A model generated the notes under the pieces. It had not been told where the DNA came from. It searched no databases and saw nothing but the letters and a program-made list of their open reading frames with translations. A stretch of 45,827 nucleotides of DNA, taken from Zavarzinia sp. GTDB taxonomy: Bacteria; Pseudomonadota; Alphaproteobacteria; Zavarziniales; Zavarziniaceae. The stretch is from positions 1-45,827 of the forward strand of contig JAOZVS010000130.1 of the NCBI GenBank assembly GCA_025869435.1. Direction: 5' to 3'. Each line of letters opens with the position of its first letter. The first letter of the stretch is position 1. This document shows positions 10,542-28,870 of the stretch, piece by piece. The position numbers were made by a program, and so were the translations under genes.

Positions 10542-10580
10542 GAAAGGCCACGAGCCCCGGGTTCGTGGCCTTTCGTTTGT
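10542..10580. terminator. Strong terminator between infC and the toxin gene
   Basis: Perfect 12-bp stem GAAAGGCCACGA (10542-10553) / TCGTGGCCTTTC (10563-10574) with a GC-rich loop, followed on the plus strand by GTTTGT. The opposite strand offers GAAAG then a less T-rich tail. It ends infC and probably also the convergent toxin gene, whose stop codon begins at 10582. Confidence 0.85.
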
Positions 10581-11017: not shown

Positions 11018-11274
11018 GGCTTCCAGTCTTCGATCAGCGTATCGAGCGCGGCATAGTCGGCCGGCACCTCGCTTTCGGCGATGGCCTTGATCGTGGCCTC
11101 GTCGAGGTCTTCGACCTTGCGGGCGACCCGGCCTTTCAGCACGGTCTCGAACAGGGCTGCCGAGATCAGCACCGTGTGGGCGCGGCCGTTCCTCGTGATC
11201 GCCACCGGCTCGCGCTGGGCGAGGTCCTGATAGCGTCCGACATTCTGCTGGAATTCGGTTGAGCTGACTTTCAC
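11014..11274 (-). CDS. Phd/YefM-type antitoxin
   Basis: 86 residues. MKVSSTEFQQNVGRYQDLAQ and PVAITRNGRAHTVLIS match the N-terminal DNA-binding and dimerisation fold of Phd/YefM antitoxins, with a C-terminal acidic tail (VEDLDEATIKAIAESE) that would wrap the toxin. Such antitoxins neutralise the toxin and repress their own operon. An inverted repeat directly upstream (11287-11314) is a good operator candidate. It is followed by the PemK-like toxin with a 4-base overlap. Confidence 0.8.
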   Translation of the reverse strand: MKVSSTEFQQNVGRYQDLAQREPVAITRNGRAHTVLISAALFETVLKGRVARKVEDLDEATIKAIAESEVPADYAALDTLIEDWKP

Positions 11275-11286
11275 GGTCCGTCACCT

Positions 11287-11338: not shown

Positions 11339-12127
11339 TTACAGGGAGCCGACCCAGCGGGCGGCGAAGTCCAGCATGTAGAAGGTCAACATGCTGGCCG
11401 ACAGGGCGCCGGCGACGGTCTGGGCCAGGCTCCAGATCCTGTCCTTCCTCTCGTCGAGGAAATACCAGATCGGGAAGCTGGCGATGAAATAGACGGCGTA
11501 GATGGCCGAGCCATAGGCCAGCATCACCTCCATTTTCTGATAATAGAAGCTCTGGGCGATCAGCGGATTGGCCATCGCCCTGGTTTCCATGAAGGCCCAG
11601 AAATAGCCGATGCCGAAGACGAGGGCCGGGAACAGCAGGACCCCGCCCGGCAACCCGCGCAAGCGGCGCAGCACGATGTTGGCCGTCGCGTGATAGGTCA
11701 TGAAATAGACGTGGGTATAGGCATACATGATCAGCGGCACCTTCTGCTGGCCGCTGCCGACCAGCGCCGCATCCAGATTGGTGGTCGCGTTCGGATAGAC
11801 ATAGACCATGCCGAGGACATCGAAGAAATATTCCGACCCGAAGTAATTGCCGAAGAAGCCGAAGACGATCAGATAGAGATTGGCCTTGAACCAATAGGCC
11901 TGGTGCCAGGGCCTGTCGGTGTAACGCTTGGCGATCAGCGCCGGAATGACCAGCACCGGCAGGGCGGTGCCGAAGGCATGGAGCAGCAGGGCGGTGTCGT
12001 CGAAGCTGCGATCCCAGCCCGTCACCATCATCATCACCATCGAGGCCATCCAGACCGGCGAATAGGCGAGAAAGAACTTCTCGGTCCAGGCCTTGTCGGG
12101 ATTGTCGGAGAACCAGGTGCCGGCCAT
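11339..12127 (-). CDS. Cycloeucalenol cycloisomerase-like membrane protein
   Basis: 262 residues, several hydrophobic segments, no signal peptide. From memory of plant CPI1 (about 280 residues), which opens the 9,19-cyclopropane ring of cycloeucalenol to give obtusifoliol, the same landmarks occur in the same order: an FFL-Y-P-W start (KFFLAYSPVWM), YWFKANLYLIVFGFFGNYF followed by EYFFDVLG, YTHVYFMTYHATANIVLRRL, and YAVYFIASFPIWYFLDE. This is a full-length, collinear match, not a shared motif. It is the last gene of a minus-strand operon after the NTF2-like gene (3-base gap), the 3-beta-HSD-like gene and the CYP51-ferredoxin gene. CYP51 acts directly after CPI1 in plants. Cyclopropyl-sterol or triterpenoid isomerase is the best guess; activity in this organism is unproven. 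Confidence 0.8.
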   Translation of the reverse strand: MAGTWFSDNPDKAWTEKFFLAYSPVWMASMVMMMVTGWDRSFDDTALLLHAFGTALPVLVIPALIAKRYTDRPWHQAYWFKANLYLIVFGFFGNYFGSEYFFDVLGMVYVYPNATTNLDAALVGSGQQKVPLIMYAYTHVYFMTYHATANIVLRRLRGLPGGVLLFPALVFGIGYFWAFMETRAMANPLIAQSFYYQKMEVMLAYGSAIYAVYFIASFPIWYFLDERKDRIWSLAQTVAGALSASMLTFYMLDFAARWVGSL

Positions 12128-12130
12128 GGC

Positions 12131-12769
12131 TCAGCGCCCGGTGAGGGCGATGCGGGCGAGCGCGAAAGTGTTGCGCAGCTTCCGCAGGCCCGACAATGGC
12201 GGATGCAGGCGGCGATGGCCGGGCAGCAGCTGGCCCTTGGCCTGGCGGTGGATCTTTTCCTTCACCACGGGCGAGAGCACGCCGGCCCCGGCCAGCTGGA
12301 AGAAACAGTCCTTGGCATTGCCGAGGTCGAAAAAGTCACGCTGCCACTGCCATTGCCAGTTGCCGCCATATTCGAACCACGAACCGCCGATGCCCTCGAT
12401 CTCGTAGAAGCTGCCGTCGGGCCGGCGATAGGGCGCGCGCTGCTTCCAGAAGCCGATGATCGTGCCCCGGCTCTCGTCGATGATGATGTCGTGGTAGGGA
12501 TATTCCCACTCCTCGAAACCCTTCATCTGGTACCCGATGGCGATATCCTCGATCTCCTTGCGACCGGTCGCGACGAATTCCTCGTTCGGGCCGATGTTCC
12601 AGGAATAGACCGCCTTGTCGGCATAGAAGGGGCCGAGGTGGCGGGTCCAGTCGCCCGCCTTCTCGGCATCGACATTGGCCTGCAGCCAGCGCTGCATCAT
12701 TTCTTCCAGTTCGGCGCGGGGGTAGGCCCGGTTCGGCGGGGTGATCGAGGCGACACGCTTGTCGGACAT
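12131..12769 (-). CDS. NTF2/SnoaL-like protein of the sterol operon
   Basis: 212 residues. Residues about 15-145 look like an NTF2/SnoaL-type cone fold: ELEEMMQRWLQANVDAEKAG, FYADKAVYSWNIGPNEEFVATG, IIIDESRGTIIGFWKQRAPY and IEGIGGSWFEYGGNWQW. A basic tail follows (about 150-212). The fold is shared with ketosteroid isomerase, SnoaL cyclase and limonene epoxide hydrolase, so an isomerase or hydratase role on a sterol-like substrate is possible, but I see no motif that fixes the reaction. The start at 12769 is supported by GGAGGAGAACCC just before it. It lies 26 bases after the 3-beta-HSD-like gene and 3 bases before the cycloisomerase-like gene. Confidence 0.65.
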   Translation of the reverse strand: MSDKRVASITPPNRAYPRAELEEMMQRWLQANVDAEKAGDWTRHLGPFYADKAVYSWNIGPNEEFVATGRKEIEDIAIGYQMKGFEEWEYPYHDIIIDESRGTIIGFWKQRAPYRRPDGSFYEIEGIGGSWFEYGGNWQWQWQRDFFDLGNAKDCFFQLAGAGVLSPVVKEKIHRQAKGQLLPGHRRLHPPLSGLRKLRNTFALARIALTGR

Positions 12770-12795
12770 GGGTTCTCCTCCCTTTTTTCTTGTGC

Positions 12796-13818
12796 TCAGG
12801 CGGCCAGTCGGCCGGCGAATTTGGCGTCGAGGTGACCTTCGGCGACCAGCCAGCGGATGGTATCGCCGAAGGTTTCGGCGCCGCCGCGGAAGTCCCGTCC
12901 CATTCGGCCCAGAATTCGGCCGGAAGAGGCCTCGGCCCATTCGGTCACGTAACTCATCGCTTCGCTGGAGACCTGCGTCTCGAAGGGCACGATCTTTCGC
13001 AATCCATCGACGAAGCCGCCCAGGGCGCGCAGTACCGGGCCGGGCAGGCGCGGCGCGGCGATTCGCCTTCCGGTGAGCGATTGCAGGAGCTGGTGGAATT
13101 CGGCCCAGGGGTAATAGCGGCCGCCGACGATGAAGCGCGCCGACTCGAAATCGCCCTGCGGCGGGTTCTCGATCAGGAAGCGGTGCGCGTCCGCCAGATC
13201 GCGGACGTCGATCGCCTGCAGCCCGGTCGAGGTCCGGGGCACCACCTTCACGAAGGCGGTCACGCCGTGGTTCGCCTCCGACAATTTGGGATCGTCCGGG
13301 CCGAAGATGCCGGCGGGATAGGTCATCTGGATCGGCCGGCCTTCGGCCTGCATGCGCCGGACATGTTCGTCGCAATCCCGCTTCGAACGGGCATAGGCAT
13401 TGGCCGGCCGGCCGAGCGGGGTCGACTCGTCGATCCTCGTGACGCCCTTCTGGAACAGCACCGACAGGCTGGAGACATAGAGGATGCGCTCTACCCCCAG
13501 CCGGCAGGCGGTGCCCAGCACGGCGTCGATCCCGGCCAGATTGTTGCGGTAGATTTCCTCCGCCCGCTTCGGGTCGACGGAGACGAGGGCGGCGGCGTGA
13601 AATACCGCGTCGCAGCCGCGCATCGCCTTGTCCATCAGGGCGGCGTCGCGCATGTCGCCGGTGACGATATCGTCGGGCACCGGGCCGAAGCGGCGAAAGT
13701 AGCGGCGAAGCGGATCGGGATCGCGGGCGAGCAGGCGCAACTGGTGCCCCGCGGCCAGCAGCGCGCGGGCGGTATGCGCGCCGACGAAGCCGGTGGCCCC
13801 GGTGACGAAAATCTTCAT
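12796..13818 (-). CDS. 3-beta-hydroxysteroid dehydrogenase-like NAD(P)-dependent epimerase/dehydratase
   Basis: 340 residues of the extended SDR family. The NAD(P) motif GATGFVGAHTARALL is at the N-terminus. The catalytic pair YARSK follows an SSLSVLF serine segment, and a substrate-binding C-terminal half ends near VAEGHLDAKF. 3-beta-HSDs and sterol C4-carboxylate dehydrogenases belong to this family, as do dihydroflavonol reductases. The operon (CYP51-Fd upstream, 13-base gap; cycloisomerase downstream) favours oxidation of a sterol 3-hydroxyl. The ATG at 13818 was chosen because it gives the usual MKIFVTGATG start; the preceding ribosome site is weak, and 14 more in-frame residues are possible. 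Confidence 0.75.
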   Translation of the reverse strand: MKIFVTGATGFVGAHTARALLAAGHQLRLLARDPDPLRRYFRRFGPVPDDIVTGDMRDAALMDKAMRGCDAVFHAAALVSVDPKRAEEIYRNNLAGIDAVLGTACRLGVERILYVSSLSVLFQKGVTRIDESTPLGRPANAYARSKRDCDEHVRRMQAEGRPIQMTYPAGIFGPDDPKLSEANHGVTAFVKVVPRTSTGLQAIDVRDLADAHRFLIENPPQGDFESARFIVGGRYYPWAEFHQLLQSLTGRRIAAPRLPGPVLRALGGFVDGLRKIVPFETQVSSEAMSYVTEWAEASSGRILGRMGRDFRGGAETFGDTIRWLVAEGHLDAKFAGRLAA

Positions 13819-13831
13819 GACCGGGCCCCGC

Positions 13832-15490
13832 TCAGTGACGCTCGATGCGCAGCGCCGCATTCGGGCAATAGAGGACGGCGGACTGGACCTTCTCCAGCTC
13901 CGCCTCGGTCACCGCTTCCTTGAGGATGCGCAGGGTGCCGTCGGCGCCGACCTGGAAATGCTCCGGCGCCTCGCCCATGCACATGGCATGGCCCTGGCAC
14001 AATTGCCGGTCGACCGCGACGGTGATCGCAGGAAGGGCCGCCGGGGCCGCCTCGGCCTTCTGGTGGAAGGGGCATTCGGCCGGCGGGGTGGTGGCTTCCG
14101 ACGTTCGCGCGGATGGGGTGGCCGGGGCCCGGCGGCGATAGCGCACGCGGCAGGGCGATTTCGGCTGCACGATCATGTCGGAATAATTGTCGACGTAACT
14201 CTCCGCAGCGTCGACCAGCTCGAAATCATAGCGGCGCAGCAGCACGGCGAAGATCGCCTTGATCTGGAACAGGGCGAAGGCATTGCCCGAGCATTTGTGC
14301 TTGCCGCCGCCGAAGGGCTGATAGGCCATCAGGTTGCGATCCTCGCGCCGCTCGGGCGAGAAGCGGTCGGGATCGAAACGCTCCGGGGTGCTGAACAGGC
14401 GCGACAGGCGGTGGGTGACCGGCGGGCAGGCCCAGACCATGTCGCCAGCCTTGATCGTGTAACCCTTGAAGGCGATATCCTCCATCACCTTCCGCATCAG
14501 GATGATCAGGGGCGGGTGCAGGCGCAGCACTTCCTTCACCACGCCTTCTAGTACCGGCATCTCGCGCAAAGAGCCGAAGGTGACCGTGCCGTCGGCACCC
14601 AGCAACCTGTCCAGTTCCGCTTCGGTCCGGCCGAGGATGTCGGGGTTCCTGAGGAGTTCGAGGAGGACCCAGGCGGCGGTGCCGGAACTCGTGTGGTGGC
14701 CGGCGAAGATCGCGCCGACCAGAAGGCCGGTGATCTCGTTCTCGTCCAGCGGCGTGCCGTCCTCGTAGCGCATGTCGATCAGGGTCTGGAACATGTCACT
14801 CGGCTTGTCCGCGGCGGCGGCGCGCTTGCGCACGATGCCTCCAACCAGCTCCTGCAGGCGCTTCCGCGCCTTGTCGCGGCGGCGGAATTTCGGGATCGGC
14901 AGATTGGGGAAGTGATAGGCGAGGGGGTGCACGCCTTCCTCGAGGTCGTGATAGATCTCGGCGAATTCGGTGCTCAGCTCATAACGGAACTCGCGCCCAA
15001 GCAGGCAGTGGCTCGCGGTATTGATGGTGAGCTGCTTCATGAACTCGACCAGCTCGATCTCGCCGGTCTCGCCCCAGTCGGCGATGATATCCTCGACCTC
15101 CTGCACGATCTTGTGGGAATGGTCGCGCATCGCCTCCATGCGCAGCGACGGCATCAGCATCCGCAACTGCTCGTTCTTGCGCGCGATCGGCGCATCGAAC
15201 ACCAGGCCCTCGCCGAAGATCGGCGTCATCAGCTTGTAGGCCGCCGACTGGTCGAGCTGTTCGTCCGAGCCGCGATAGAAGATCTCGCTCGCTTCGTCGC
15301 CGGTCAGCAGCACGATGCGCTGGCCCAGCAGGGTGAAGGCGGCAATTTCGCCATGCTCGGTCGCGACGGTGGAGACGAAATGATAGGGGTTACGCGCGAA
15401 GGCCAGCATGTGGCCGAACCAGGGCAGGCCGCCTCGCGCCGTCGGTGGTGTCGCGCCGCCCTTGCGGCCGGCTGTCGCCTGCAGGCTCAT
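13832..15490 (-). CDS. CYP51-like cytochrome P450 fused to a ferredoxin domain
   Basis: 552 residues in two parts. Residues 1-455 form a P450 with CYP51 hallmarks: YKLMTPIFGEGLVFD (85-99, the B'-helix signature), AGHHTSSGT (263-271, I-helix with the CYP51 His-Thr pair), KEVLR (E320/R323) and FGGGKHKCSGNAF with heme Cys400. The following QIKAIFAVLLRRYDFEL is almost the CYP51 consensus. A Pro/Ala/Thr linker (about 455-488) leads to a ferredoxin domain with Cys498, Cys504 and Cys542-Pro, a three-cysteine [3Fe-4S] pattern. CYP51 removes the sterol 14-alpha-methyl group. A CYP51-ferredoxin fusion is known from Methylococcus capsulatus. First gene of the operon, divergent from a TetR gene; GGGAGGGGAAGA precedes the ATG. 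A steroid hydroxylase is the alternative. Confidence 0.85.
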   Translation of the reverse strand: MSLQATAGRKGGATPPTARGGLPWFGHMLAFARNPYHFVSTVATEHGEIAAFTLLGQRIVLLTGDEASEIFYRGSDEQLDQSAAYKLMTPIFGEGLVFDAPIARKNEQLRMLMPSLRMEAMRDHSHKIVQEVEDIIADWGETGEIELVEFMKQLTINTASHCLLGREFRYELSTEFAEIYHDLEEGVHPLAYHFPNLPIPKFRRRDKARKRLQELVGGIVRKRAAAADKPSDMFQTLIDMRYEDGTPLDENEITGLLVGAIFAGHHTSSGTAAWVLLELLRNPDILGRTEAELDRLLGADGTVTFGSLREMPVLEGVVKEVLRLHPPLIILMRKVMEDIAFKGYTIKAGDMVWACPPVTHRLSRLFSTPERFDPDRFSPERREDRNLMAYQPFGGGKHKCSGNAFALFQIKAIFAVLLRRYDFELVDAAESYVDNYSDMIVQPKSPCRVRYRRRAPATPSARTSEATTPPAECPFHQKAEAAPAALPAITVAVDRQLCQGHAMCMGEAPEHFQVGADGTLRILKEAVTEAELEKVQSAVLYCPNAALRIERH

Positions 15491-15693: not shown

Positions 15694-16284
15694 ATGACCA
15701 CGCTACCGTCCAAGCCGCCATCGAACGAGACGAGGCAGCGCGTCCTCGAAGCCGCCATCGCCTGCGTGAAGCAATGGGGGATCGAGAAGACCAGCCTGCT
15801 CGATATCGCGCGCCAGGCGGGGGTGACGCGGCCCACGGTCTATCGCTACTTCACCAGCCGGGAGGATGTGCTGAGCGCCGCCCTGCTGCAGTCGGCGGCG
15901 GCGATGGCGCAGCGTCTGATCGCGCATATCGAGGGCGAGGCGGATCCGGCGGAGCGTTTCGTGAGGGCGATCCTGTTTCTGCTGGACGATGTACCGAAGG
16001 AGCCGCAGCTCTCGGTCATGACCCTGTCCAGCCTCGCGACCTATGTCAGCGAGGATGCCCTGATCAACGCCGAGGGCTTCGGGCTCTCGCTTCTCCTGAT
16101 GAAGCAGATCCTGGCGGGTGTCGCGATGGCGGAGGACGAGTGGCGCGAGGTGACGGAGGCGACCATCCGGATGCTGCTGTCCCTCCTCAACATGGCGGGG
16201 CCGGCCGAGCGAAGCGCGGAACAGATGCGGGGTTTTGTTGTCCGGCGAATGCTGCCGATGACGGGCCTGACCCTGAAGTCCTAG
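15694..16284 (+). CDS. TetR-family regulator, divergent to the CYP51 operon
   Basis: 196 residues. The N-terminal helix-turn-helix is clear: RQRVLEAAIACVKQWGIEKTS then LLDIARQAGVTRPTVYRYFTSREDVL, the classic TetR recognition region. The C-terminal ligand-binding half (residues 60-196) is all-helical and unassigned. As a divergent neighbour it most likely represses the CYP51-Fd/3-beta-HSD/NTF2/cycloisomerase operon and is released by a sterol-like ligand; this is inference from position. A candidate operator lies at 15577-15605. The ATG at 15694 lacks a strong ribosome site (GAAGG at 15687-15691 is close). Confidence 0.85.
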   Translation: MTTLPSKPPSNETRQRVLEAAIACVKQWGIEKTSLLDIARQAGVTRPTVYRYFTSREDVLSAALLQSAAAMAQRLIAHIEGEADPAERFVRAILFLLDDVPKEPQLSVMTLSSLATYVSEDALINAEGFGLSLLLMKQILAGVAMAEDEWREVTEATIRMLLSLLNMAGPAERSAEQMRGFVVRRMLPMTGLTLKS

Positions 16285-16547: not shown

Positions 16548-17741
16548 ATGGACGGCAGCAGCGAACTCAACATCACCGTGCCGACGGAAGACGAAATGCG
16601 CGCCCGGGCGCGCGCCCTCGTCCCCCTCCTGCGGGCCAAATCCGACGAAGGCGAGCGCCTGCGCCGCGTGCCCGACGCGGTGATGGCCGCGATGAAGGAC
16701 GCGGGCCTGTTTCGCATCCTGCAGCCCAAGCGCTGGGGCGGTTACGAGATGCATCCCAATGTCTATTACGACGTCCTCATGACCCTCGGCGAGGGCGACA
16801 TGTCGGCCGCCTGGTGTTACGGCGTCATCGGCTGCCATCCCTGGCAGATGGCGCTGTTCGATGACCGGGCGCAGGCGGAAGTCTGGGGCGAGGACACCTC
16901 GACGCTGATCTCCTCCACCTACATGATCCAGGGCGATGCCCGCCCGGTCGAGGGCGGTTACATCTTCAACGGCCGCTGGCGCTTCTCGTCGGGCTGCGAG
17001 CATTGCGGCTGGATCTTCCTCGGCGGCGAGGTCGGTCGCGGTTCCGGCAACATGGACATGCGGACCTTCCTGCTGCCGCGCAAGGACTACGAGATCGTCG
17101 ATACCTGGGACACCCTGGGCCTGCGCGGCACCGGCAGTCACGACATCGTGGTCAAGGATGCCTTCGTACCCGAATACCGCACCCATCTGTTCATGGACGG
17201 CGTGATGTGCAACAGCCCGGGCAACGCGGTGAACACCCATGGTCTCTACCGGATGCCGTTCCCGCAGGTCTTCATCCGGGCGGTTTCGACCTCGTCCATC
17301 GGCGGACTGCAGGCCATGCTCGACGCCTTCGTGAATTACGCGGCGAAGCGGACCACGGTCACGGGATCGAAGACGGCTGAAGACGGCACGGCCCAGCTGC
17401 TCTGCGCCGAGACCGCCTCGGCCATCGACGAGATGAAGCTGGTCCTGCATCGCAACATCAACGTGATGTATGACATCGCCTGCGCCGGCGGCTTCACCGA
17501 AATGTCGGATCGCTTCAAGTTCCGCTATCAGTCGGCCGAAGTGCCGGAGCGCTGCGCCAATCTGGCCCAGCGCCTGTTCAAGGCCGGCGGCGGCGCCGCG
17601 GTCTTCAACAAGCTGCCCTTCGCCCGCATCCTGTCCGATCTCCATACCGGCCGCGCCCATGCCGCCAATCAGGCGGATTCGATCGGCCGCAACTGGGGCG
17701 GCGTGATGCTCGGCCTCGAGAATACCGACTACTGGATCTGA
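16548..17741 (+). CDS. HsaA-like flavin-dependent hydroxylase (acyl-CoA dehydrogenase fold)
   Basis: 397 residues, the size of HsaA (about 394), the oxygenase of 3-hydroxy-9,10-seconandrostatriene-dione 4-hydroxylase in steroid catabolism, a group D flavin monooxygenase. Landmarks shared with HsaA as I recall it: FRILQPKRWGGYEMHP, MALFDDRAQAEVWGED, ISSTY, RWRFSSGCEHCGWIFLGGE, DTLGLRGTGSHDIVVKDAF and GRAHAANQ. The catalytic Glu of true acyl-CoA dehydrogenases is not evident. These enzymes need a separate flavin reductase (HsaB), and none is visible in the window. GAGGGAAAG precedes the ATG. It starts a plus-strand series with DUF1302, DUF1329 and the ketosteroid-dehydrogenase-like gene. A related aromatic hydroxylase is the alternative. 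Confidence 0.75.
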   Translation: MDGSSELNITVPTEDEMRARARALVPLLRAKSDEGERLRRVPDAVMAAMKDAGLFRILQPKRWGGYEMHPNVYYDVLMTLGEGDMSAAWCYGVIGCHPWQMALFDDRAQAEVWGEDTSTLISSTYMIQGDARPVEGGYIFNGRWRFSSGCEHCGWIFLGGEVGRGSGNMDMRTFLLPRKDYEIVDTWDTLGLRGTGSHDIVVKDAFVPEYRTHLFMDGVMCNSPGNAVNTHGLYRMPFPQVFIRAVSTSSIGGLQAMLDAFVNYAAKRTTVTGSKTAEDGTAQLLCAETASAIDEMKLVLHRNINVMYDIACAGGFTEMSDRFKFRYQSAEVPERCANLAQRLFKAGGGAAVFNKLPFARILSDLHTGRAHAANQADSIGRNWGGVMLGLENTDYWI

Positions 17742-17882: not shown

Positions 17883-19907
17883 ATGGCACGCAGGGGAATA
17901 AGGGCTGGAGAAAGCGGGACGGTCGCAAGGCCCGCCCTGCTCGCGGCCATGGCCGGGGGCCTGATCGGCGGGGCGGGGCTTGCCCTCGCGGAAGTCTATC
18001 AGCTCGACAATGGCGCCACGATCGGCGTCAACATGACGACGACCTACCAGATCGGCGTTCGGGCCGAGGATCCCCATCCGCGCTCCTTTTCCCCCGATAC
18101 CGATTACGCGCAGGTCGTCATCCTGCCGCAGCTGCCGATCCTGCCGGTGGTGCCGACCTCGACCCACACGCCGCAGACCTATAATTTCGACGATCCCAAC
18201 CTGAATTTCGAGAAGGGCGACCTGATCACCAACGCGGTGACCGCGCTCCTCGAAGCCAGTTTCAAATACGAGGAATTCGGCGTCAACCTGAGCGGCAACG
18301 CCTTCTATGATTTCGTTTATCACTCGGCGAATTCCAACGACACGGAGTTTCCCGATGGTATCAACAAGAGTTACGGCGAGCCGGACCAGTTTCCGGGGCA
18401 GACCCGCGTCGCCAATGGTGGCCGCTTCCGCCTGCTCGACGCCTTCGCCTATGGCACCTTCCATCCCTTCGATACCGACCTGTCCATCCGCGCCGGCAAC
18501 CAGGTGGTCGCCTGGGGCGAGAGCCTGTTCTTCGGCAATATCTCGCTCAGTCAGGGTGTCGTCGATGTAACGCGCTCGAACTCGCCGGGCTCGGAGGTGA
18601 AGGATATCCTGCTGCCGGTGCCTCAGGTCTCGATGAACTGGGGCCTGACCGACCGGCTGTCCCTGCTCGGCTACTACCAGTTCGGCTTCGAGAACAACCA
18701 GATGGACGGCGTCGGCAGTTTCTTCAGCCGCTCCGACATCATCGGGCCGGGCGCCGAATTCGCCTATGGCTCGGTCAATCCCTTTCCCGATGTCATCAGC
18801 ACTCTCGCCTCGGCCTGCACCCTCAGCCCGTCGACGCCGGGGTGCCAGAACATCGCCCTGCCGATGCCGATCTCGCAACTGCTCTCGCAGGTCATCAGCG
18901 ACAATCTGCTCGGTATCGCCAATGAGGATACGAAGCGCTTCGACGTCGCCTATGCCGGCGAGGTGAAGCCGAACAGCGGCCAGTTCGGCGCCGGCCTGCT
19001 CTATGACGTCACCGACAATCTGACGGCGGGCCTGTACTTCCTGAAGTATCACGACAAGAACCCGTCGCCGACCTTCGACATCTCGACGATCGATACCGAT
19101 CCCTTCCGGCCTGGCTCGGTCGGCGGTGCCGTCGCGGGCCTGTGCGGCGGCCTCGGCATCGACTGTTCCGGCGTCGAGGGCATGGTGAATTCGGTGGTCG
19201 ACAATCTGGTGGCGACGGTCGCCCCGCTCTACCTGCCCTATACCTATCGCGTGGTCTATTACGAGGACGTCAAGCTCTACGGCGGCAGCGCGACGACGAC
19301 CCTCGGCCCCGTCAACGTCGGTTTCGAATTCGCCTATCGCCAGGGCGCGCCGATGCTGGTCAACGGCATGATTTCCGGCATCAAGGCGCCGCAGCCGGTG
19401 CGCGGCGACTATTGGCAGGCGAACCTGAGCGGGCTTTATGTCGGCGGCGCCACCGCTTGGTGGGATTCGCTGAACCTCGTCGCCGAGGTCAGCCTGAACC
19501 ACGTCGTTCGCCACGACACCCTCTATTTCTACGACCAGAACGGCCAGCCGCTGCAGGACGGCAATGGCAACAACATCAACGCCTTCCGGCAGCTGACCGG
19601 CGACAAGACGTCCTGGGGCATTCAGGGCCTCGCCGAATTCGGCTTCACCGATGTCTTCCCGGGCGGCTGGGACATGGCCGTTCCCGTCGCCTTCGGCATC
19701 GCCTTCGGCACGCCCGCCGCGCCTGGCGCCCTCGGCGCCCTGTCGGGCACGGGCGATGTCCGCGTCTCCTCCGGGGTCAAGTTCCGGCACCTGAACAATC
19801 TCGAGATCGGCGTGATCTATACCGCCTTCTTCGGCTCCTACGAGCGGATCGAGCGGCCGCTGGTCGACCGCGACTACGTCATCGCCACGGCGAAATACAC
19901 ATTCTGA
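17883..19907 (+). CDS. DUF1302 family outer-membrane protein
   Basis: 674 residues. The N-terminus is basic (MARRGIRAGESG) and followed by a hydrophobic stretch ending in ALA, a Sec signal peptide cleaved about residue 37. The mature part is rich in alternating aromatic/polar strands and closes with KYTF, a C-terminal phenylalanine as in beta-barrel outer-membrane proteins. DUF1302 proteins are often encoded next to DUF1329 proteins in gene sets for hydrophobic substrates (alkanes, aromatics, steroids), which suggests a role in substrate passage; the biochemical role is not settled. I chose ATG 17883 because it gives a signal peptide, whereas the frame upstream reads through a hairpin. The DUF1329 gene follows after 32 bases. 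Confidence 0.85.
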   Translation: MARRGIRAGESGTVARPALLAAMAGGLIGGAGLALAEVYQLDNGATIGVNMTTTYQIGVRAEDPHPRSFSPDTDYAQVVILPQLPILPVVPTSTHTPQTYNFDDPNLNFEKGDLITNAVTALLEASFKYEEFGVNLSGNAFYDFVYHSANSNDTEFPDGINKSYGEPDQFPGQTRVANGGRFRLLDAFAYGTFHPFDTDLSIRAGNQVVAWGESLFFGNISLSQGVVDVTRSNSPGSEVKDILLPVPQVSMNWGLTDRLSLLGYYQFGFENNQMDGVGSFFSRSDIIGPGAEFAYGSVNPFPDVISTLASACTLSPSTPGCQNIALPMPISQLLSQVISDNLLGIANEDTKRFDVAYAGEVKPNSGQFGAGLLYDVTDNLTAGLYFLKYHDKNPSPTFDISTIDTDPFRPGSVGGAVAGLCGGLGIDCSGVEGMVNSVVDNLVATVAPLYLPYTYRVVYYEDVKLYGGSATTTLGPVNVGFEFAYRQGAPMLVNGMISGIKAPQPVRGDYWQANLSGLYVGGATAWWDSLNLVAEVSLNHVVRHDTLYFYDQNGQPLQDGNGNNINAFRQLTGDKTSWGIQGLAEFGFTDVFPGGWDMAVPVAFGIAFGTPAAPGALGALSGTGDVRVSSGVKFRHLNNLEIGVIYTAFFGSYERIERPLVDRDYVIATAKYTF

Positions 19908-19939
19908 CCAACGACAAGAAACGATCGAGGAGGAACACC

Positions 19940-21316
19940 ATGGATCGCAGGACTTTCGTCGCCGGACTGGGCGCGGCCGCCTGGGCCGCCGCCACCCCCC
20001 GCTTCGGCTTCGCCAAGGCGGCGGCGGACGAGGTGGCGAAACTGGGCACGTCCCTGACACCGGCCGGCGCGATCAAGGAAGGCAGCGCGGACGGGCTGCT
20101 GGCGCCCTGGTCGGGCAAATGGCTGGGCGTGCCGCCGGGCATCACCCATGGCGGCACGGGCAAGGTGCAGGCCAACCCTTACGCGGCGGAAAAGCCGCTG
20201 TTCTCGATCACCGCGCAGAATGTCCAGACCTATGCCGACCGCCTGACCGAGGGGCAGAAGGCGCTGCTGCAGAAGAATCCTGCAACCTTCCGCATGGATG
20301 TCTATCCCTGCCACCGGGATTTCCGCTTCAACGACGCGCTGCACGCCAATCTGAAGCTGAACGCGCAGGAAGCCCAGGTGACCCCCGACGGCGAAGGCGT
20401 GACCGGAACCTTCGGCGCGCCCGCCTTTCCCTTCCCCAAGAGCGGGCTGGAGCTGATCTGGAATGTGATCAGTATCCCGCGTGGCTTCACCCAGCGCGGC
20501 ACCATGGACGAAGCCGTGGTCTATCCCGACGGCAACATCGCCTGGGGCGCGCAGCAATGGGACATCTACGCCACAGCCTATGACCCGACGGTCGCCCGCG
20601 CCAGTTTCGACGGCGGCTCGGCCTTCGTCTTCCGCAGCACGCTGAAACCCGAGCGTGAGCGCGGCTCGATCACCCTCGTCCGGGAATATTGGGATTTCGG
20701 CAACCGGCCGAGCCAGGCCTGGCAATATGTCCCGGGCACGCGGCGGGTGAAGCAGGTGCCGGAAATCGCCGGCGACTATCCGCTGGGGCCGGGCGGCTTC
20801 CACACGGTCGACGATACCGGCCTGTGGACCCAGTCGCCCAAGCGCTATGATTGGGAAATCGCCGGCAAGAAGGAAATCTTCATCCCCTACAACAACTTCC
20901 TGATCGAAGATCCGGCGGTGAAATACAAGGACCTGCTGGCCAAGGCCCATCTCAATCCCGACGCGGTGCGCTGGGAGTTGCACCGCTGCTGGGTATTGAA
21001 GGCCAGGCTGAAGCCGGGCCTCCGCCATGTCTATGCCGCCCGCACGATCTACATCGACGAGGACAGTTTCAACCCCGTGATCGCCGACATGTATGACGCG
21101 CGCGGCCAGCTCTATCGCATGGCCATGAACACCACGTCCTATGACTATGCCTCGCAGTTCTTCCAGCAGCGGGTTTGCGTCTATCACGACCTCGTCTCCG
21201 GCGCCTATATGGCCGACCGCCTGTCGAGCGAGGTGGTGGACCGCATGCGCTACAACGAGGGCGGCCGCAAGGAAAGCGACTACACCCCGCAGGAATTGAA
21301 GCGGAAGGGCGTCTGA
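19940..21316 (+). CDS. DUF1329 family exported protein (LolB-like)
   Basis: 458 residues. MDRRTFVAGLGAAAWAAATP is a Tat-type leader (RRTF followed by a hydrophobic run and AxA site near residue 26). The rest matches DUF1329: PWSGKWLGVPPGITHGGTG, an NVISIPRGFTQRG segment, EYWDFGNRPSQAWQYVPGTRRVK, and PYNNFLIEDPAVKYKDLLA. Members resemble lipoprotein-carrier folds and are usually paired with DUF1302 barrels, as here. The start at 19940 is set by GAGGAGGA at 19927-19934. The protein probably works in the periplasm with the preceding barrel on a hydrophobic compound. The ketosteroid-dehydrogenase-like gene lies 89 bases downstream. Confidence 0.85.
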   Translation: MDRRTFVAGLGAAAWAAATPRFGFAKAAADEVAKLGTSLTPAGAIKEGSADGLLAPWSGKWLGVPPGITHGGTGKVQANPYAAEKPLFSITAQNVQTYADRLTEGQKALLQKNPATFRMDVYPCHRDFRFNDALHANLKLNAQEAQVTPDGEGVTGTFGAPAFPFPKSGLELIWNVISIPRGFTQRGTMDEAVVYPDGNIAWGAQQWDIYATAYDPTVARASFDGGSAFVFRSTLKPERERGSITLVREYWDFGNRPSQAWQYVPGTRRVKQVPEIAGDYPLGPGGFHTVDDTGLWTQSPKRYDWEIAGKKEIFIPYNNFLIEDPAVKYKDLLAKAHLNPDAVRWELHRCWVLKARLKPGLRHVYAARTIYIDEDSFNPVIADMYDARGQLYRMAMNTTSYDYASQFFQQRVCVYHDLVSGAYMADRLSSEVVDRMRYNEGGRKESDYTPQELKRKGV

Positions 21317-21405: not shown

Positions 21406-23109
21406 ATGGCGACAGGCAAGGGCAGCGGCGATGCGATCGGCGCCGAGGTCTCGGCCGGCAATGCCGTCGTCGGGGCACCCCTGCCGGCACCGGAACGCTT
21501 CGACGTGGATTGCGGCCTGCTGGTGATCGGCTATGGCGCTGCCGGGGCCTGCGCCGCGCTCGAGGCGGCGGAGCGGGGTCTCGACGTGTTGCTGGCCGAT
21601 CGTTTCGCCGGGGGCGGTGCCAGTTGGTTGTCCGGCGGCATCGTCTATGCTGGCGGCGGCACGCGCCACCAGACGGCGGCCGGCCGTCCCGACAGTGTGG
21701 AGGCCATGGCGGCCTATCTCGCCCGGGAAGTGGGCGATGCCGTCTCGGCCGAGACCATAAGGCGCTATGCCGCCGAAAGCGCGGGCATGATCGACTGGCT
21801 GGAGGCGCATGGCGTCGGCTTCGACAGCGCCGAAGCGCCCCATGAAACCTCCTACCCTTCCAAGGATCATTATCTCTATTTCTCGGGCAACGAGATGGTG
21901 CCGTCCAATCGCGACGCCATCCCGCCCGCGCCGCGCGGCCACCGGGCCAAGGGCAAATGGCTGTCCGGCCGGGCGATGATGGAGGCGCTGATGGCCCGTG
22001 TCGCCCGCACGAGGGGCATCACGGTGCGGACCGAAGCAAAGGCGCGCCGCCTGATCGTCGATCCGGCGGGCGCGGTCATCGGCGCCGAATTCATGGCCCT
22101 GCGTCCCGGCGGCATCGCCGCCCGGCTGCACCGCGCGTTGGAGCGGCCGGCGCGTATCATCGCCCTGCAGGTCGCGGGCGTGTCCACGGTGCTGGTGCGG
22201 CTCGCGGCCCTGATCGAGGGGGCTTTCGCCCGGCCGCTGCGGGTCCGTGCCCGCCACGGCGTCGTGCTGGCGACCGGCGGCTTCATCAAGAACCGGGCGA
22301 TGGTGGCGCGCCATGCGCCCGAATTCATGCCGGGCTTTCCCCTCGGCTCCTCGGGCTGCGACGGCAGCGGCATCCGCCTTGGCCTTGGCCTCGGCGGGCG
22401 GCTGGACAAGGCCAATCGCATATCGGCCTGGCGCTTCATCAACCCGCCCCATGCCTTCGCCAAGGGCATCGTGGTCGGCCCCGACGGCCAGCGCCTGACC
22501 AACGAGGAACAATATGGCGCCCGCCTCGGCGATGCGATGTTCCGCAAGGCGGGCGGGCGGGGCTACGTCATCCTCGACGACGCGCAGCTGCGCGAGGCCA
22601 AGACCGAGATCGCGCAAGGGTCCATGTGGGGTTTCCAGTCGGTACCGGCCCGCTTCCTGATGCTGGGGGCGAAATCGGCGCCGACGATCGAGGCGCTGGC
22701 GGCGAAGCTGGGCATGGTGCCGGCGGCCCTCGTCGGCGAGATCGCGGCCAATAATGCCGCCGCGCGCGACGGCCAGCCCGACCCCGTCGGCAAATCGGAC
22801 GAGATGCGGGGCGTCATCGCCACCGGGCCGTTCCACGCCCTCGACATTTCCGCGACCAACCGGGCCTTCCCGCTGCCGGTGCTCACCCTCGGCGGCCTCG
22901 CGGTCGAGGAGGCGACGGGGGCGGTGCTGCGGGCCGAAGGCGGCGTGGTGCCCGGGCTCTACGCCATCGGGCGGGCGGCCCGGGGCCTGCCGTCCAATTA
23001 TTATGTCAGCGGCCTGTCGCTGGGCGACTGCGTCTGGACCGGCCGGCGCACCGCCGCCCATATCGCGGAGCGGGCGGCGGAGCCTCGTCAGGCGGCCGTG
23101 GCGGAGTGA
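21406..23109 (+). CDS. FAD-dependent 3-ketosteroid dehydrogenase-like protein
   Basis: 567 residues of the fumarate reductase/ketosteroid dehydrogenase flavoprotein family. The ADP-binding motif LLVIGYGAAGACAALEAAE starts near residue 40, LATGGFIKNRAMV is the second FAD contact, and the C-terminal NYYVSGLSLGDCVWTGRR closes the FAD site. KstD (delta-1) enzymes usually carry YPGPG here; the Y-V-S arrangement is closer to what I recall for delta-4(5-alpha)-ketosteroid dehydrogenases, where a Tyr and a Ser two residues later polarise the C3 carbonyl. The exact bond oxidised is therefore uncertain. AGGGGGAGAGAG precedes ATG 21406. It is the last gene of the plus-strand block and converges with the SDR gene 9 bases away. 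Confidence 0.75.
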   Translation: MATGKGSGDAIGAEVSAGNAVVGAPLPAPERFDVDCGLLVIGYGAAGACAALEAAERGLDVLLADRFAGGGASWLSGGIVYAGGGTRHQTAAGRPDSVEAMAAYLAREVGDAVSAETIRRYAAESAGMIDWLEAHGVGFDSAEAPHETSYPSKDHYLYFSGNEMVPSNRDAIPPAPRGHRAKGKWLSGRAMMEALMARVARTRGITVRTEAKARRLIVDPAGAVIGAEFMALRPGGIAARLHRALERPARIIALQVAGVSTVLVRLAALIEGAFARPLRVRARHGVVLATGGFIKNRAMVARHAPEFMPGFPLGSSGCDGSGIRLGLGLGGRLDKANRISAWRFINPPHAFAKGIVVGPDGQRLTNEEQYGARLGDAMFRKAGGRGYVILDDAQLREAKTEIAQGSMWGFQSVPARFLMLGAKSAPTIEALAAKLGMVPAALVGEIAANNAAARDGQPDPVGKSDEMRGVIATGPFHALDISATNRAFPLPVLTLGGLAVEEATGAVLRAEGGVVPGLYAIGRAARGLPSNYYVSGLSLGDCVWTGRRTAAHIAERAAEPRQAAVAE

Positions 23110-23118
23110 CGCCGCGTC

Positions 23119-23892
23119 TCATAGGCCGAAGCCGCCCGAGACATTGATCTGCTGCCCGGTGATATAGGACGCCTTGGCCGAAGCCAGGAAGACCGCGGCA
23201 TTGCCGATATCCTCGCCGGTGCCGAGGCGCTTGATCGCGATCATGCGCAGGGTCTCCCTGATCCAGCGTTCGTCGAAAACGCCGCGCGCCTTCAATTCGA
23301 GGAACATGCCCGCCTCGATCACGCCGACGAGGACGGAATTGGCGCGGATGCCATGGACGCCTTCCTCCCGCGCGATGCCCTTGATCAGGGCTTCGTTCGC
23401 CGCCTTGGGCGCGACCGACAGACCGTCCTTCTTCGGCCAGCGCAGATGTCCTGCCGAGCCGAGGTGAATGAAGGAGCCGCCGCCCATCGCCCGCATATGC
23501 GGCACGGCGGCCGAGACGCAGTTGAAGAAACCGATGGTCTCGGTCTCGATCGACTGGCGCCACAGGGCGGGGGACGTATCGGCGATCGCCACCTGCTCCA
23601 CCACCGGCCCGGCGGCGAAGACGACGGTATGGATGCGGCCATGGGTATCGACCGCCTCGGCGAAGGCGGCGTTCACGCTCGCGGCGTCGGTCAGGTCGAC
23701 GGCGTGATGACTGGCCTTGCGGCCGAGCGCGGTGAACTCAGCGACCAGGTCCCGCGCGACATCGGCCTTCCGCCGGTAGGTCACCGCGACATCGCAGCCC
23801 GCGGCAGCGAAACCGCGCGCGACCTCGCGGCCGATACCCCCGCTGCCGCCGAAGACGAGCGCGGCACCCGCCGGAAAATCCGACACCCCCAT
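23119..23892 (-). CDS. SDR-family protein with Ser in place of the catalytic Tyr
   Basis: 257 residues, classical SDR length. The cofactor motif VFGGSGGIGREVARGF is at residues 13-28, and RKADVA follows the second strand. The catalytic Ser is in LGSAGHLRW. Thirteen residues on, where Tyr of YxxxK should stand, the sequence is SVAPK: Lys is kept and Tyr is Ser (codon TCG at about 23440). ADIGNAA-type C-terminal features (TGEDIGNAAVFLAS, ITGQQINVSGGFGL) are normal. It may have altered chemistry or a binding role. The start at 23892 follows a G-rich ribosome site. It converges with the ketosteroid-dehydrogenase-like gene and is separated from the upstream TetR gene by repeat copy 2. Confidence 0.85.
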   Translation of the reverse strand: MGVSDFPAGAALVFGGSGGIGREVARGFAAAGCDVAVTYRRKADVARDLVAEFTALGRKASHHAVDLTDAASVNAAFAEAVDTHGRIHTVVFAAGPVVEQVAIADTSPALWRQSIETETIGFFNCVSAAVPHMRAMGGGSFIHLGSAGHLRWPKKDGLSVAPKAANEALIKGIAREEGVHGIRANSVLVGVIEAGMFLELKARGVFDERWIRETLRMIAIKRLGTGEDIGNAAVFLASAKASYITGQQINVSGGFGL

Positions 23893-24064: not shown

Positions 24065-24820
24065 CTATCGCGTCGCCGTGTCCAGCGCGGCAAGCTGCGC
24101 CTGTACCGCCGACGTCAAGGCCGTGCCGTCCGGCATTACCATCTCGACGGCGACGCGGGGCAGGGCGAAGAGGCGCAGGAAATCGGTCTGGACCCGGGCG
24201 ATCACCACGGCGTGATCCTCGGCCATGCCGCCCGCGACCCAATTGGCCAGCCTCGTCTGTTGCAGCGCCATCAACATGCGCGCCTGATCCCGGCCATGGC
24301 CCGCGACCAGCTGGCCGGCGCGGACGCCGAAATCCAGCGCCTGTTCGATCAGCCCGGCGCCCAATTCCCACAGGGCCTGTTCGTCGTGGGAGGGCTGGGC
24401 GGCGGCGTGATACCACATATATCCCTCCTGCAGGATCAGGCGCAGGTAATCGGGGTGGTCCAGCAGGAAGGCGACATTCACCTTCATCATCCACAGAAGG
24501 CCGATCAGTGGCGCCTGCCCCAGCGAGACCGATTGCAGGCGCGACATGACGGCGTCGAGCATTTCCCGGTCGCGGGTGACCAGCACCGCGTGATGCAGCT
24601 CCTGCTTGCCCGGATGGAACTGATAGAGCGTCGCCAGCGAAATGCCCGCCTCCCGCGCGATATCCTGCATTCGGGTGCCGGCGAAGCCATGTTCGGCGAA
24701 GACCTTTTCCGCGACGTCGAGGATGTGGTCGCGCGACAGCGCCTGTTTCGCCGCCTTCAAGGCCTGGGCCGCGCCGTTGCGGGGCGGACGGGCTTCGGTC
24801 GCTTGCGGTTTTGCACTCAT
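24065..24820 (-). CDS. TetR-family regulator, divergent to the GMC oxidoreductase operon
   Basis: 251 residues. After a charged, Ala-rich N-terminal tail, residues about 28-75 form the TetR helix-turn-helix: RDHILDVAEKVFAEHGFAGTRMQDIAREAGISLATLYQF has the usual spacing (written here only as a pattern, residues 30-68), with HPGKQELHHAVL after it. The C-terminal half is the ligand pocket. The divergent region holds a 16-bp perfect palindrome at 24913-24928, a strong operator candidate for control of the GMC/ALDH/desaturase/3-beta-HSD operon and itself. I chose ATG 24820 because longer reading would overlap the palindrome. Confidence 0.87.
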   Translation of the reverse strand: MSAKPQATEARPPRNGAAQALKAAKQALSRDHILDVAEKVFAEHGFAGTRMQDIAREAGISLATLYQFHPGKQELHHAVLVTRDREMLDAVMSRLQSVSLGQAPLIGLLWMMKVNVAFLLDHPDYLRLILQEGYMWYHAAAQPSHDEQALWELGAGLIEQALDFGVRAGQLVAGHGRDQARMLMALQQTRLANWVAGGMAEDHAVVIARVQTDFLRLFALPRVAVEMVMPDGTALTSAVQAQLAALDTATR

Positions 24821-24928: not shown

Positions 24929-24988
24929 CAAACTGCAAGGCTAATTACAAGGGCGCCCGGAGAAGCGCCTGGGGAGGTCGAACAGGGC

Positions 24989-26575
24989 ATGGAGGCATTC
25001 GATCACATCGTTGTCGGGGGCGGATCGGCCGGCTGCGTCGCCGCCGCCCGCCTGGCTGGCAAGGCTCGCGTGCTCCTGCTCGAGGCGGGGGACCCAGCGG
25101 TGGATCATCCCGAAACCCTGTCCTCGGATGGTTTTAAAGATGCATTCTCCAACGATGCCCTGATGTGGCACCGCATGTCGGCACGGCAGAAGGACTGCGG
25201 CGGCCGTTCGCTCTATATCGGCACCGGCCGGGGCCTGGGCGGCTCGGGCTCGGTCAACGGCATGGTCTACACGAGGGGTGACCGGCGCGATTTCGAGGCC
25301 TGGCCGGCGGGCTGGCGCTGGGATGACATCGTGCCCGCCTTTCAGGCGGTGGAAAGCCGCCTCGGGATTCGCCCGCGCCCGCCCACGCCCTTCGCCGAAT
25401 GTTTCCTCGCCGCCGCGGTCGAGGCGGGTTTCGCGCGGAAAGACGGCATGAATGACGGCGACCTGTCCGGCGTCGTCGGTGCCAACGACATGAATTACGC
25501 GGGCGATCAGCGTCGCTCCTCCTATCGCGCCTTCGTGCATGACGATCCGCCCGCCGGCCTCACGGTCCGGACCGGCGCCACGCTTCGCCGCATCCTGTTC
25601 GAGGGCGCGCGCGCGGTCGCGGTCGATTACAGCATCGAAGGCCGCGTCGAGCGCGCCCGCGTCACGGGCGAACTGGTGATGGCGGCTGGCGCGCTGGAGA
25701 CGCCGCGCCTTCTGATGCTGTCGGGCGTCGGTCCGGCGGCGGAACTGGCGCGGCACGGTATTGCCGTGGTGAAGGATGCGCCGGGCATCGGGCGGAACCT
25801 GCAGGATCACCCCAATGTCTGCATGTTCTATACCGCGAAGGCCCCGATCGATTTCCGGTATCCGCAGGTCTACGGCTTCGATGTCGCCGCCCGCGAGCCG
25901 GACGAGCCGAGGGACGGGGCGCCCGACACCTGCTTCGTCTGCTATGCCGCGCCGGCCTCGCTGAAGGAATCCATGCGGCGGATGGTGCCGGTGCTGGCCC
26001 TGCCGGGCCGGCTGCATGATATCGCCGTGCTGCGCCGATTCTTGCGGGGCGCCATCGAGCTGGCGTTCCGCCTGCCGCCCTTGCGCCGTTTCGTCGACAG
26101 TCTCTTCGGCATCGTCGTCATCCTGGGCAAGCCGACCTCGCGCGGCAGCCTGCGGCTCGCCTCCGCCGACCCGGATGCGCCGGCCATCGTCGATCCCGGC
26201 TATTACGCCAGCGCCGCCGACCGCGCGACGATCGAGGCCGGCATCGTGAAAGCGCGCGACATCGCCGCAAGGGCACCGCTGGCCCGGGCGGGCGTCAGGC
26301 CCCTGTCGGCGGGGGCGAGGCCCGTCAGTGGCGCCCGGTTGTGGAGATGGCTGGCGGGCGCCACCATGACCACCTTCCATTTCTGCGGCACCTGCCGCAT
26401 GGGCGACGATGCGGACAGCCCGGTCGACACGCGGCTCCGGCTGAAGGGCTTCGCCAATGTCCGCGTCGCCGATGCCTCGGTCATGCCCGAGATCCCGGTA
26501 TCCGCCCTCAACGCGCCCAGCATGATGATCGGCCAGCGCGCCGCGGATTTCATCCTGTCAGGAGACATGGCATGA
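24989..26575 (+). CDS. GMC-family FAD-dependent alcohol oxidoreductase
   Basis: 528 residues. The N-terminal FAD motif is HIVVGGGSAGCVAAARLAG with the ribose-binding LLLEAGD. GMC signature 1 is GRGLGGSGSVNGMVYTRG, signature 2 is GALETPRLLMLSGVG, and the active-site pair lies in FHFCGTCRMG (His) and LNAPSMMIGQRAADFI (Asn). The family includes choline dehydrogenase, alkanol dehydrogenases and cholesterol oxidase, so the alcohol is not fixed by sequence. The downstream aldehyde dehydrogenase (ATGA overlap) suggests a primary alcohol oxidised to an acid. GGGGAGG at 24971-24977 supports ATG 24989; longer in-frame reading would cross the operator palindrome. Confidence 0.9.
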   Translation: MEAFDHIVVGGGSAGCVAAARLAGKARVLLLEAGDPAVDHPETLSSDGFKDAFSNDALMWHRMSARQKDCGGRSLYIGTGRGLGGSGSVNGMVYTRGDRRDFEAWPAGWRWDDIVPAFQAVESRLGIRPRPPTPFAECFLAAAVEAGFARKDGMNDGDLSGVVGANDMNYAGDQRRSSYRAFVHDDPPAGLTVRTGATLRRILFEGARAVAVDYSIEGRVERARVTGELVMAAGALETPRLLMLSGVGPAAELARHGIAVVKDAPGIGRNLQDHPNVCMFYTAKAPIDFRYPQVYGFDVAAREPDEPRDGAPDTCFVCYAAPASLKESMRRMVPVLALPGRLHDIAVLRRFLRGAIELAFRLPPLRRFVDSLFGIVVILGKPTSRGSLRLASADPDAPAIVDPGYYASAADRATIEAGIVKARDIAARAPLARAGVRPLSAGARPVSGARLWRWLAGATMTTFHFCGTCRMGDDADSPVDTRLRLKGFANVRVADASVMPEIPVSALNAPSMMIGQRAADFILSGDMA

Positions 26576-28179: not shown

Positions 28180-28182
28180 GCC

Positions 28183-28857: not shown

Positions 28858-28870
28858 GGGCGACAGAACC

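Follow-up and report, generated by a model that had tools for sequence, protein, structure and literature searches.

Why bacteria without sterol synthesis keep the sterol 14alpha-demethylase CYP51 has been an open question for decades, mycobacteria included, and the known steroid-catabolism pathways of proteobacteria begin from steroids that are already demethylated. The Arabidopsis cyclopropylsterol isomerase (CPI) CPI1, or cycloeucalenol cycloisomerase, was reportedly described by Lovato in 2000. According to the accessible text of Lee, Giner and Welander (May 2026; PMC13277303), the bacterial 8,14-sterol reductase 8,14-Bsr, a member of the NTF2 superfamily, takes the delta-8,14 sterol left by CYP51 and reduces it to a delta-8(14) sterol. 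The same text places homologues in alpha- and gammaproteobacteria, with the gene often co-localized with CYP51 and the ferredoxin fused or co-localized, cites the transformation of lanosterol and cycloartenol in Mycobacterium in connection with CYP51/8,14-Bsr, and raises a similar question on CYP51 retention. Bacterial C-4 demethylation is presented solely through SdmAB(C) in the available part of PMC10202945. The locus analyzed here, a window of 45,827 nucleotides from a Zavarzinia genome, holds homologues of CPI1, CYP51 and 8,14-Bsr together with C-4 demethylation-like genes in two operons, which probably form one module with which a bacterium that does not make sterols would use imported cycloartenol-type (4,4,14-trimethyl, 9beta,19-cyclopropyl) sterols.

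The window is a complete 45.8 kb contig (C129) of a Zavarzinia metagenome-assembled genome (MAG) of 3.49 Mb that is 75.5% complete. By its CPI gene, the closest named relative is Zavarzinia aquatilis (92%), and G169 and G042, to which the contigs of Z. aquatilis and Z. marina belong, are genomes of the same genus according to the genome search. Four minus-strand genes, tightly packed in one operon as an earlier sequence-only reading of this DNA had stated, lie at positions 11339-15490 with intergenic gaps of 3, 26 and 13 bp. The start sites of the NTF2-like protein and of the short-chain dehydrogenase/reductase (SDR) are our choice within longer open reading frames (ORFs).

11339..12127, minus strand: homologue of the plant cyclopropylsterol/cycloeucalenol isomerase, predicted multi-helix, 262 aa (alignment with an unverified plant sequence; model with a predicted local distance difference test, pLDDT, of 90.7)
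12131..12769, minus strand: 8,14-Bsr homologue with an NTF2-like fold, 212 aa (six published residues, fold matches)
12796..13818, minus strand: SDR, HpnA/SdmB/3beta-HSD-like, YxxxK present, 340 aa (HpnA 155 bits, SdmB 80 bits, each under its cut-off)
13832..15490, minus strand: CYP51 sterol 14alpha-demethylase fused to ferredoxin, 552 aa (PDB relatives, Pfam, motifs)

The assignment of the first of these proteins as a CPI homologue is a strong lead, resting on a comparison with an unverified copy of the Arabidopsis CPI1 sequence. Against this copy the window protein aligned over its full length with 36.5% identity (BLASTP E 2e-47, set of 40 sequences). A profile built from 40 bacterial proteins scored the CPI1 copy at 197 bits (scoring shuffles 0/200), which supports the full-length, collinear match to cycloeucalenol cycloisomerase noticed earlier. 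All 40 bacterial rows align to this CPI1 copy at 27-38%, it retains 25 of the 31 residues that are invariant across them, and the single printed alignment (L015) has about 11 extra residues relative to it. A two-pattern scan of 84,980 species' genomes yielded 40 CPI loci, 39 with long matches, which together with their conserved synteny excludes a chance match. These loci were divided into group A (18 loci, L008-L025, at least 48% identity) and group B (22 loci, L026-L047); L047, with a 25-residue match, was left out before the 40-row alignment and tree. Pfam and NCBIfam gave no match at E<=0.01 for the CPI homologue or the NTF2-like protein, and a PDB sequence search found no relative of either. 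The plant CPI1 copy likewise had no Pfam match above cut-off, so that Pfam's silence on the bacterial homologue is uninformative. The AlphaFold model is confident and mostly helical; no structure in PDB matched its fold at E<=0.001, and it therefore adds nothing on function. Among 116 pattern matches in viral contigs, none was a relative. The homologue thus resembles plant CPI1 in collinear full-length homology, in identity (about 36%) and in most invariant residues, as far as the unverified letters go; unlike CPI1, it is bacterial and operon-encoded, occurs in carriers mostly without a cyclase match, and has an activity predicted from sequence.

The adjacent NTF2-like protein is recognizable as a putative 8,14-Bsr through a published residue set, beyond general resemblance. 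The pocket residues listed for Methylococcus capsulatus in the accessible text of PMC13277303 (Y37, Y43, Y78, Y80, D133, D136) are all six found in the window protein at a constant offset of +12 (Y49, Y55, Y90, Y92, D145, D148), and 0 of 20,000 shuffles reached five of them. All 15 group-A homologues that were aligned retain the set, whose Tyr residues include one replaced by Phe in the group-B match of L035, and of 3,000 ORFs drawn from the loci 11 contained all six residues, presumably as homologues. The model (pLDDT 86; predicted template-modeling score, pTM, 0.79) has an NTF2 fold: the top 50 Foldseek matches have E values of 6e-7 to 7e-6, probability 1.00 and TM scores of 0.39-0.47 (query length), among them 3hx8 (putative ketosteroid isomerase), limonene epoxide hydrolases and PhzA/B, which we take to be NTF2-like. 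The earlier description as NTF2-like was thus right about the fold and missed the reductase.

Among solved structures the P450 lies nearer to CYP51s than to other P450s, and it has the heme Cys400 motif. Its best solved relative is PDB entry 6mcw (E 3.2e-194, the alignment extending through the ferredoxin), which we take to be M. capsulatus CYP51, with 60% identity across 441 residues. The bit scores decrease from 650 for M. capsulatus CYP51 and 424 for what we take to be M. tuberculosis CYP51 over 319 for the top entry labelled 'lanosterol 14-alpha demethylase' to 246 and 156 for entries without a CYP51 name (9wat, 'Cytochrome P450', and 3dbg, respectively), and eight CYP51 copies from other genera of the class sample introduced below share 41-46% identity with the window P450. 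The ferredoxin is encoded in the same ORF (Pfam Fer4_15, a 4Fe-4S single-cluster domain, 3.7e-9, residues 491-549) and has three cysteines (498, 504, 542), a pattern that is presumably 3Fe-4S-like. The CYP51-ferredoxin fusion was therefore correctly read from the sequence, and the motifs quoted for it are all present (Cys400 in FGGGKHKCSG, AGHHTSSGT from residue 263, YKLMTPIFGEG from residue 85). In the Oceanococcus MAG locus L010 (6547-8100), CYP51 extends over two overlapping ORFs, perhaps because of an assembly frameshift.

A second, plus-strand operon at 24980-29899, in which a 10 bp overlap is followed by gaps of 3 and 13 bp, resembles C-4 demethylation systems. The sequence-only reading had drawn its boundaries too narrowly around the first operon, where it found a '3-beta-HSD-like' protein that is indeed an SDR with YxxxK, and it missed the following genes of the same system.

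24980..26575, plus strand: GMC oxidoreductase, proposed for 4-hydroxymethyl oxidation (family scan, synteny)
26566..28179, plus strand: aldehyde dehydrogenase, proposed for 4-formyl to 4-carboxy oxidation (family scan, synteny)
28183..28857, plus strand: FA_hydroxylase family protein with HxxxH/HxxHH/HxxHH, proposed C-4 sterol methyl oxidase (SMO; PF04116, 85 bits)
28871..29899, plus strand: 3Beta_HSD family SDR, proposed 4-carboxysterol 3-dehydrogenase/decarboxylase (PF01073, 189 bits; near CPI in relatives)

The candidate SMO has the FA_hydroxylase domain and three histidine boxes of SMO/ERG25 (H106/110, H119/122/123, H198/201/202); the eight histidines are conserved in all nine group-A homologues aligned. 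The SDR at 28871-29899 has the two features of ERG26-type enzymes, family PF01073 and YxxxK (as YADSK), and its OleD-like match of 250 bits is below the cut-off of 580. Neither SDR reaches the SdmB cut-off of 600 bits (NF052578; 80 bits at 12796, 53 bits at 28871), and we infer that the one at 12796-13818 may be a 3-ketosteroid reductase or dehydrogenase. Like eukaryotic C-4 demethylation (SMO/ERG25 plus 3beta-HSD/D, ERG26), the window pairs a three-histidine-box FA_hydroxylase with a 3Beta_HSD SDR, here in one operon; it differs in the added GMC oxidoreductase and aldehyde dehydrogenase and in the proposed catabolic setting.

That the two operons of the window constitute one system is best supported by two relatives. 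In the Stagnimonas (L011) and Stenotrophobium (L017) loci all module genes stand in one row, with GMC, aldehyde dehydrogenase, SMO, 3beta-HSD, CYP51, ferredoxin, SDR, 8,14-Bsr and CPI consecutive on one strand (CYP51 and ferredoxin being separate ORFs in L011). Group A spans Zavarzinia, several gammaproteobacterial groups and Polyangia, and several of its loci end at contig edges. Applying identity cut-offs of 40% (CYP51, 8,14-Bsr, ferredoxin, first SDR, SMO), 50% (GMC), 55% (aldehyde dehydrogenase) and 60% (3beta-HSD), we found CYP51 and 8,14-Bsr in 15 of the 18 loci each, ferredoxin in 13, 3beta-HSD in 10, SMO in nine, and the first SDR, GMC and aldehyde dehydrogenase in eight each. CYP51, 8,14-Bsr and CPI occur together in 13/18 loci and CYP51, CPI, 3beta-HSD, SMO, aldehyde dehydrogenase and GMC in 8/18, and the CPI gene immediately follows 8,14-Bsr in all 15 loci that have both. 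Within the genus, the operons are adjacent and convergent in G266 and convergent in Z. marina with one extra SDR-like ORF between them, while Z. aquatilis has the inter-operon order of the window (HsaA-like, DUF1302, DUF1329, FAD) as far as its locus reaches and SMO on the same contig. At the genome level, SMO orthologues were found in 14/18 group-A and 0/8 group-B genomes searched, and 8,14-Bsr at 51% or more in 15/18 group-A genomes, with only 29-32% matches in five of the eight of group B; the 18 group-A genomes differ from the 18 loci in that this search left out L018 and L023 but took in the own genome and G266.

In the class sample of 385 genomes, a convincing CPI is present in six genomes, all among the 11 with CYP51 (E<=1e-60); these six represent only two genera and are therefore not six independent events. 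A further match in G039 (E 5e-4, 93 residues) was dismissed because it sits in a transporter-like ORF. In the CPI tree Zavarzinia nests among Gammaproteobacteria with Polyangia close by, some joins being weakly supported, which is a hint that the module may have been transferred between phyla. We claim no origin from this tree, since the Polyangia join beside the window is weak and the plant row has a very long branch. The group-B homologues (L026-L047, 34-41% identity) come from Halieaceae, Nevskiaceae, Rhodospirillales, Myxococcota and others, often adjoin another SDR (9 of 21 loci clustered), sometimes a CYP51 at 41-43%, and have no SMO set with them. Their substrates may be other sterols, or they may catalyze another isomerization.

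Family-level gene identities, synteny, the absence of cyclase matches and the presence of KshA-family genes are read from the sequences; from these we infer substrates, step order and catabolic purpose as follows. The SMO-like hydroxylase would oxidize a C-4 methyl group, which the GMC oxidoreductase and aldehyde dehydrogenase would carry to the acid; the 3beta-HSD-like SDR would then oxidize C-3, the resulting beta-keto acid would decarboxylate, and the second SDR would reset C-3. The CPI homologue would protonate and open the 9,19-cyclopropane to give a delta-8 sterol, CYP51-ferredoxin would remove the 14alpha-methyl group to give the delta-8,14 sterol, and the 8,14-Bsr homologue would reduce this to delta-8(14). 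The demethylated nucleus would finally enter steroid catabolism by way of a KshA-family oxygenase elsewhere in the genome and the HsaA-like and FAD enzymes beside the module.

Several observations weigh against this scheme. The delta-8(14) bond would bring no obvious benefit for ring-B opening. SMO orthologues are absent from 4/18 group-A and all eight group-B genomes searched, L015 and L016 have CYP51 and CPI and no 8,14-Bsr match genome-wide, and the Polyangia locus L013 has CPI without any other module gene within its 15.8 kb, a locus that is not short. Plant and mycobacterial CYP51s have Phe two residues past the signature Tyr of the B-prime region, a rule of plant-like substrate class. 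The window CYP51 reads YKL and so has Leu at this position, which is also the residue in 13 of the 15 group-A CYP51s read (Ile in the other two; Phe or Tyr in the four read from group B). This rule gives no sign of a plant-type preference for 4-monomethyl substrates, which weakens the plant-like order of steps and qualifies the earlier suggestion of consecutive steps as in plants.

The module may instead act on imported lanosterol-type, non-cyclopropyl 4,4,14-trimethyl sterols, with the CPI homologue repurposed as a double-bond isomerase that would, for example, move the delta-8(14) bond left by 8,14-Bsr. We consider this unlikely, yet it has points in its favor. The genomes of the CPI carriers L013 and L034 hold cyclases, and the two cyclases read (G388 and one in G406) have Val at the position before the DCTAE motif that we take to determine the product (HGWPVSDCTAE in G388). 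In the available part of PMC4919349, Val at that residue is linked to lanosterol and not to cycloartenol, and the Val before DCTAE in the cyclase of the L013 genome also counts against our own scheme. CYP51 and 8,14-Bsr of M. capsulatus use lanosterol-derived sterols (PMC13277303, accessible text), the strict order of 8,14-Bsr and CPI in group A would suit such a role, and so would the group-B homologues outside an SMO context. Against a repurposed enzyme, the invariant residues common to the bacterial proteins and the CPI1 copy are as conserved chemistry would predict, and since the L015 and L016 genomes keep CPI without an 8,14-Bsr match, CPI does not depend on the 8,14-Bsr product. In addition, no record titled Methylococcus, a producer of delta-8(14) sterols, is among the 40 CPI loci, a weak point given the two-pattern scan.

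The carriers look most likely like sterol importers and degraders rather than makers, since 24 of the 26 carrier genomes have no SQHop_cyclase_C match and all 26 have KshA-family oxygenases. The 24 include the own genome (G000) and the three same-genus genomes G042, G169 and G266, which are 99-100% complete (completeness figures apply to these four, the other 22 carriers having been reached via loci), and both cyclase-positive carriers are Myxococcota. The KshA_C family was detected in 11 of 142 class genomes, two of them Zavarzinia, and at E<=1e-60 in 19/26 carriers against 2/142 class genomes, both Zavarzinia. An HsaA-like gene of at least 350 bits is present in 15/18 group-A genomes. The earlier suggestion that imported substrates may be used is thereby supported, while the link to steroid catabolism had escaped that reading. 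Between the two operons lie the following genes:

15694..16284, plus strand: TetR regulator divergent from the CYP51 operon (a homologue adjoins CYP51 in 7/18 group-A loci)
16548..17741, plus strand: HsaA-like flavin monooxygenase oxygenase subunit, steroid A-ring step (NF045629, 372 bits, cut-off 450)
17883..19907, plus strand: DUF1302 protein (family scan)
19916..21316, plus strand: DUF1329 protein (family scan)
21406..23109, plus strand: FAD-binding oxidoreductase, distant kin of 3-ketosteroid dehydrogenases (NF005511, 'FAD-binding protein', 655 bits, cut-off 466)
23119..23892, minus strand: SDR oxidoreductase (Pfam/NCBIfam scans)
24065..24817, minus strand: TetR regulator divergent from the C-4 operon (family scan, locus comparison)

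The HsaA-like, DUF1302, DUF1329 and FAD genes, whose order recurs in Z. aquatilis, and the KshA_C family in every carrier argue against the idea that the module remodels imported sterols for membranes without degrading them. This idea is improbable in our view, although some bacteria do import sterols for their membranes and the proposed end product would resemble a normal demethylated sterol. The marker families are those of proteobacterial steroid catabolism (KshA, HsaA, DUF1302/DUF1329), into whose known pathways the module would feed triterpenoid-like sterols. The case for degradation has its own weak points. KshA_C takes in other Rieske oxygenases too, and its background comes from this class only, whereas the carriers are mostly Gammaproteobacteria or Myxococcota. 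The one Zavarzinia KshA-family protein scanned receives no NCBIfam name, and nine proteins from the surroundings of the KshA genes in Z. aquatilis and in Z. marina, where a rough codon rule served to predict the genes, have no steroid-catabolism-specific NCBIfam name at E<=1e-20. All HsaA-like matches remain under the curated cut-off (best carrier 404 bits), and some match is found in 7/14 control genomes as well. The FAD oxidoreductase reaches 115 bits against NF009478 (3-ketosteroid-delta-1-dehydrogenase), far under its cut-off of 789, and HsaA and FAD genes are within reach of CPI in only one of the 18 group-A loci, that of Z. aquatilis. Most carriers are MAGs, and absences apply to assemblies. 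In G266 (C2:794159-807459), where the CYP51/CPI and 3beta-HSD/SMO operons converge, an HsaA-like gene lies about 6 kb past SMO.

De novo synthesis of cycloartenol-type sterols with a cyclase elsewhere in the genome, for which the modification enzymes and the two Myxococcota carriers with cyclases and a squalene-epoxidase-like domain in the same frame could be cited, was rejected as very improbable, because SQHop_cyclase_C has no match in the own genome, the three same-genus genomes or 20 further carriers, and the four Zavarzinia genomes have no ERG24-type reductase. The full-genome searches thus bear out the earlier impression for both enzymes of the route, squalene epoxidase being absent from the Zavarzinia genomes or marginal in one (20 bits). 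This latter family is a poor marker, since it exceeds its cut-off in 19/26 genomes and is strong in only two (83 and 92 bits, in the cyclase-bearing frames), the remaining matches being of about 19-34 bits; E. coli and Caulobacter give matches too. An ERG24-type reductase was found above cut-off in 3/26 carriers; its absence from Zavarzinia is consistent with 8,14-Bsr performing the 14-reduction step. In G388 (L048/L052, Polyangia) and G406:C27, the squalene-epoxidase-like domain shares an open frame (1159 and 1142 aa) with the cyclase domain, which suggests that the two enzymes are fused in Myxococcota; only for G388 were both read in one ORF.

Compared with M. capsulatus, the window has the same fused P450 and the same six 8,14-Bsr residues. 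According to the accessible text of PMC13277303, M. capsulatus synthesizes lanosterol itself and C-4 demethylation in some methanotrophs proceeds through SdmAB, whereas the carriers studied here mostly have no cyclase match. They add CPI, SMO-like, GMC, aldehyde dehydrogenase and 3beta-HSD genes, none of which is mentioned in that text, its cluster figure (Fig. 4b) and supplements aside. Like mycobacteria, which degrade sterols and do not make them, the carriers combine CYP51 with 8,14-Bsr, but none of the 40 CPI loci comes from a record titled actinobacterial. Each part comes from a known family, and it is the combination and the proposed catabolic use that look new. Neither a bacterial CPI nor this cluster was reported in the literature searched, which left out most subscription journals and all preprints, and the available parts of PMC4919349 and PMC8172173 mention no bacterial CPI. 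If the function is as proposed, the window protein would be the first bacterial cyclopropylsterol isomerase found in that literature, and the C-4 operon, if rightly read, a way of removing C-4 methyl groups that differs from SdmAB.

Plants and some algae commonly contain cycloartenol-type sterols, and the pathway would for this reason bear on the recycling of plant and algal lipids, whose sterols the cluster most likely serves to break down. We give about even odds to the wider proposal that this is an undescribed bacterial pathway for mineralization, which demethylates and opens imported cycloartenol-type sterols through CPI and a non-SdmAB C-4 route, whose module moved between phyla, and which explains physiologically why CYP51 and 8,14-Bsr persist in many bacteria that do not make sterols. 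The cluster offers a concrete, testable role for CYP51 in such bacteria, with Zavarzinia aquatilis, Z. marina, Stenotrophobium rhamnosiphilum and Spongiibacter pelagi as cultured species for testing, and its enzymes could find use in making steroids from phytosterol by-products. Immediately downstream of the CPI gene, at 10580-11275 on the minus strand, two small ORFs resemble by eye a Phd/YefM-type antitoxin and a PemK-like toxin.

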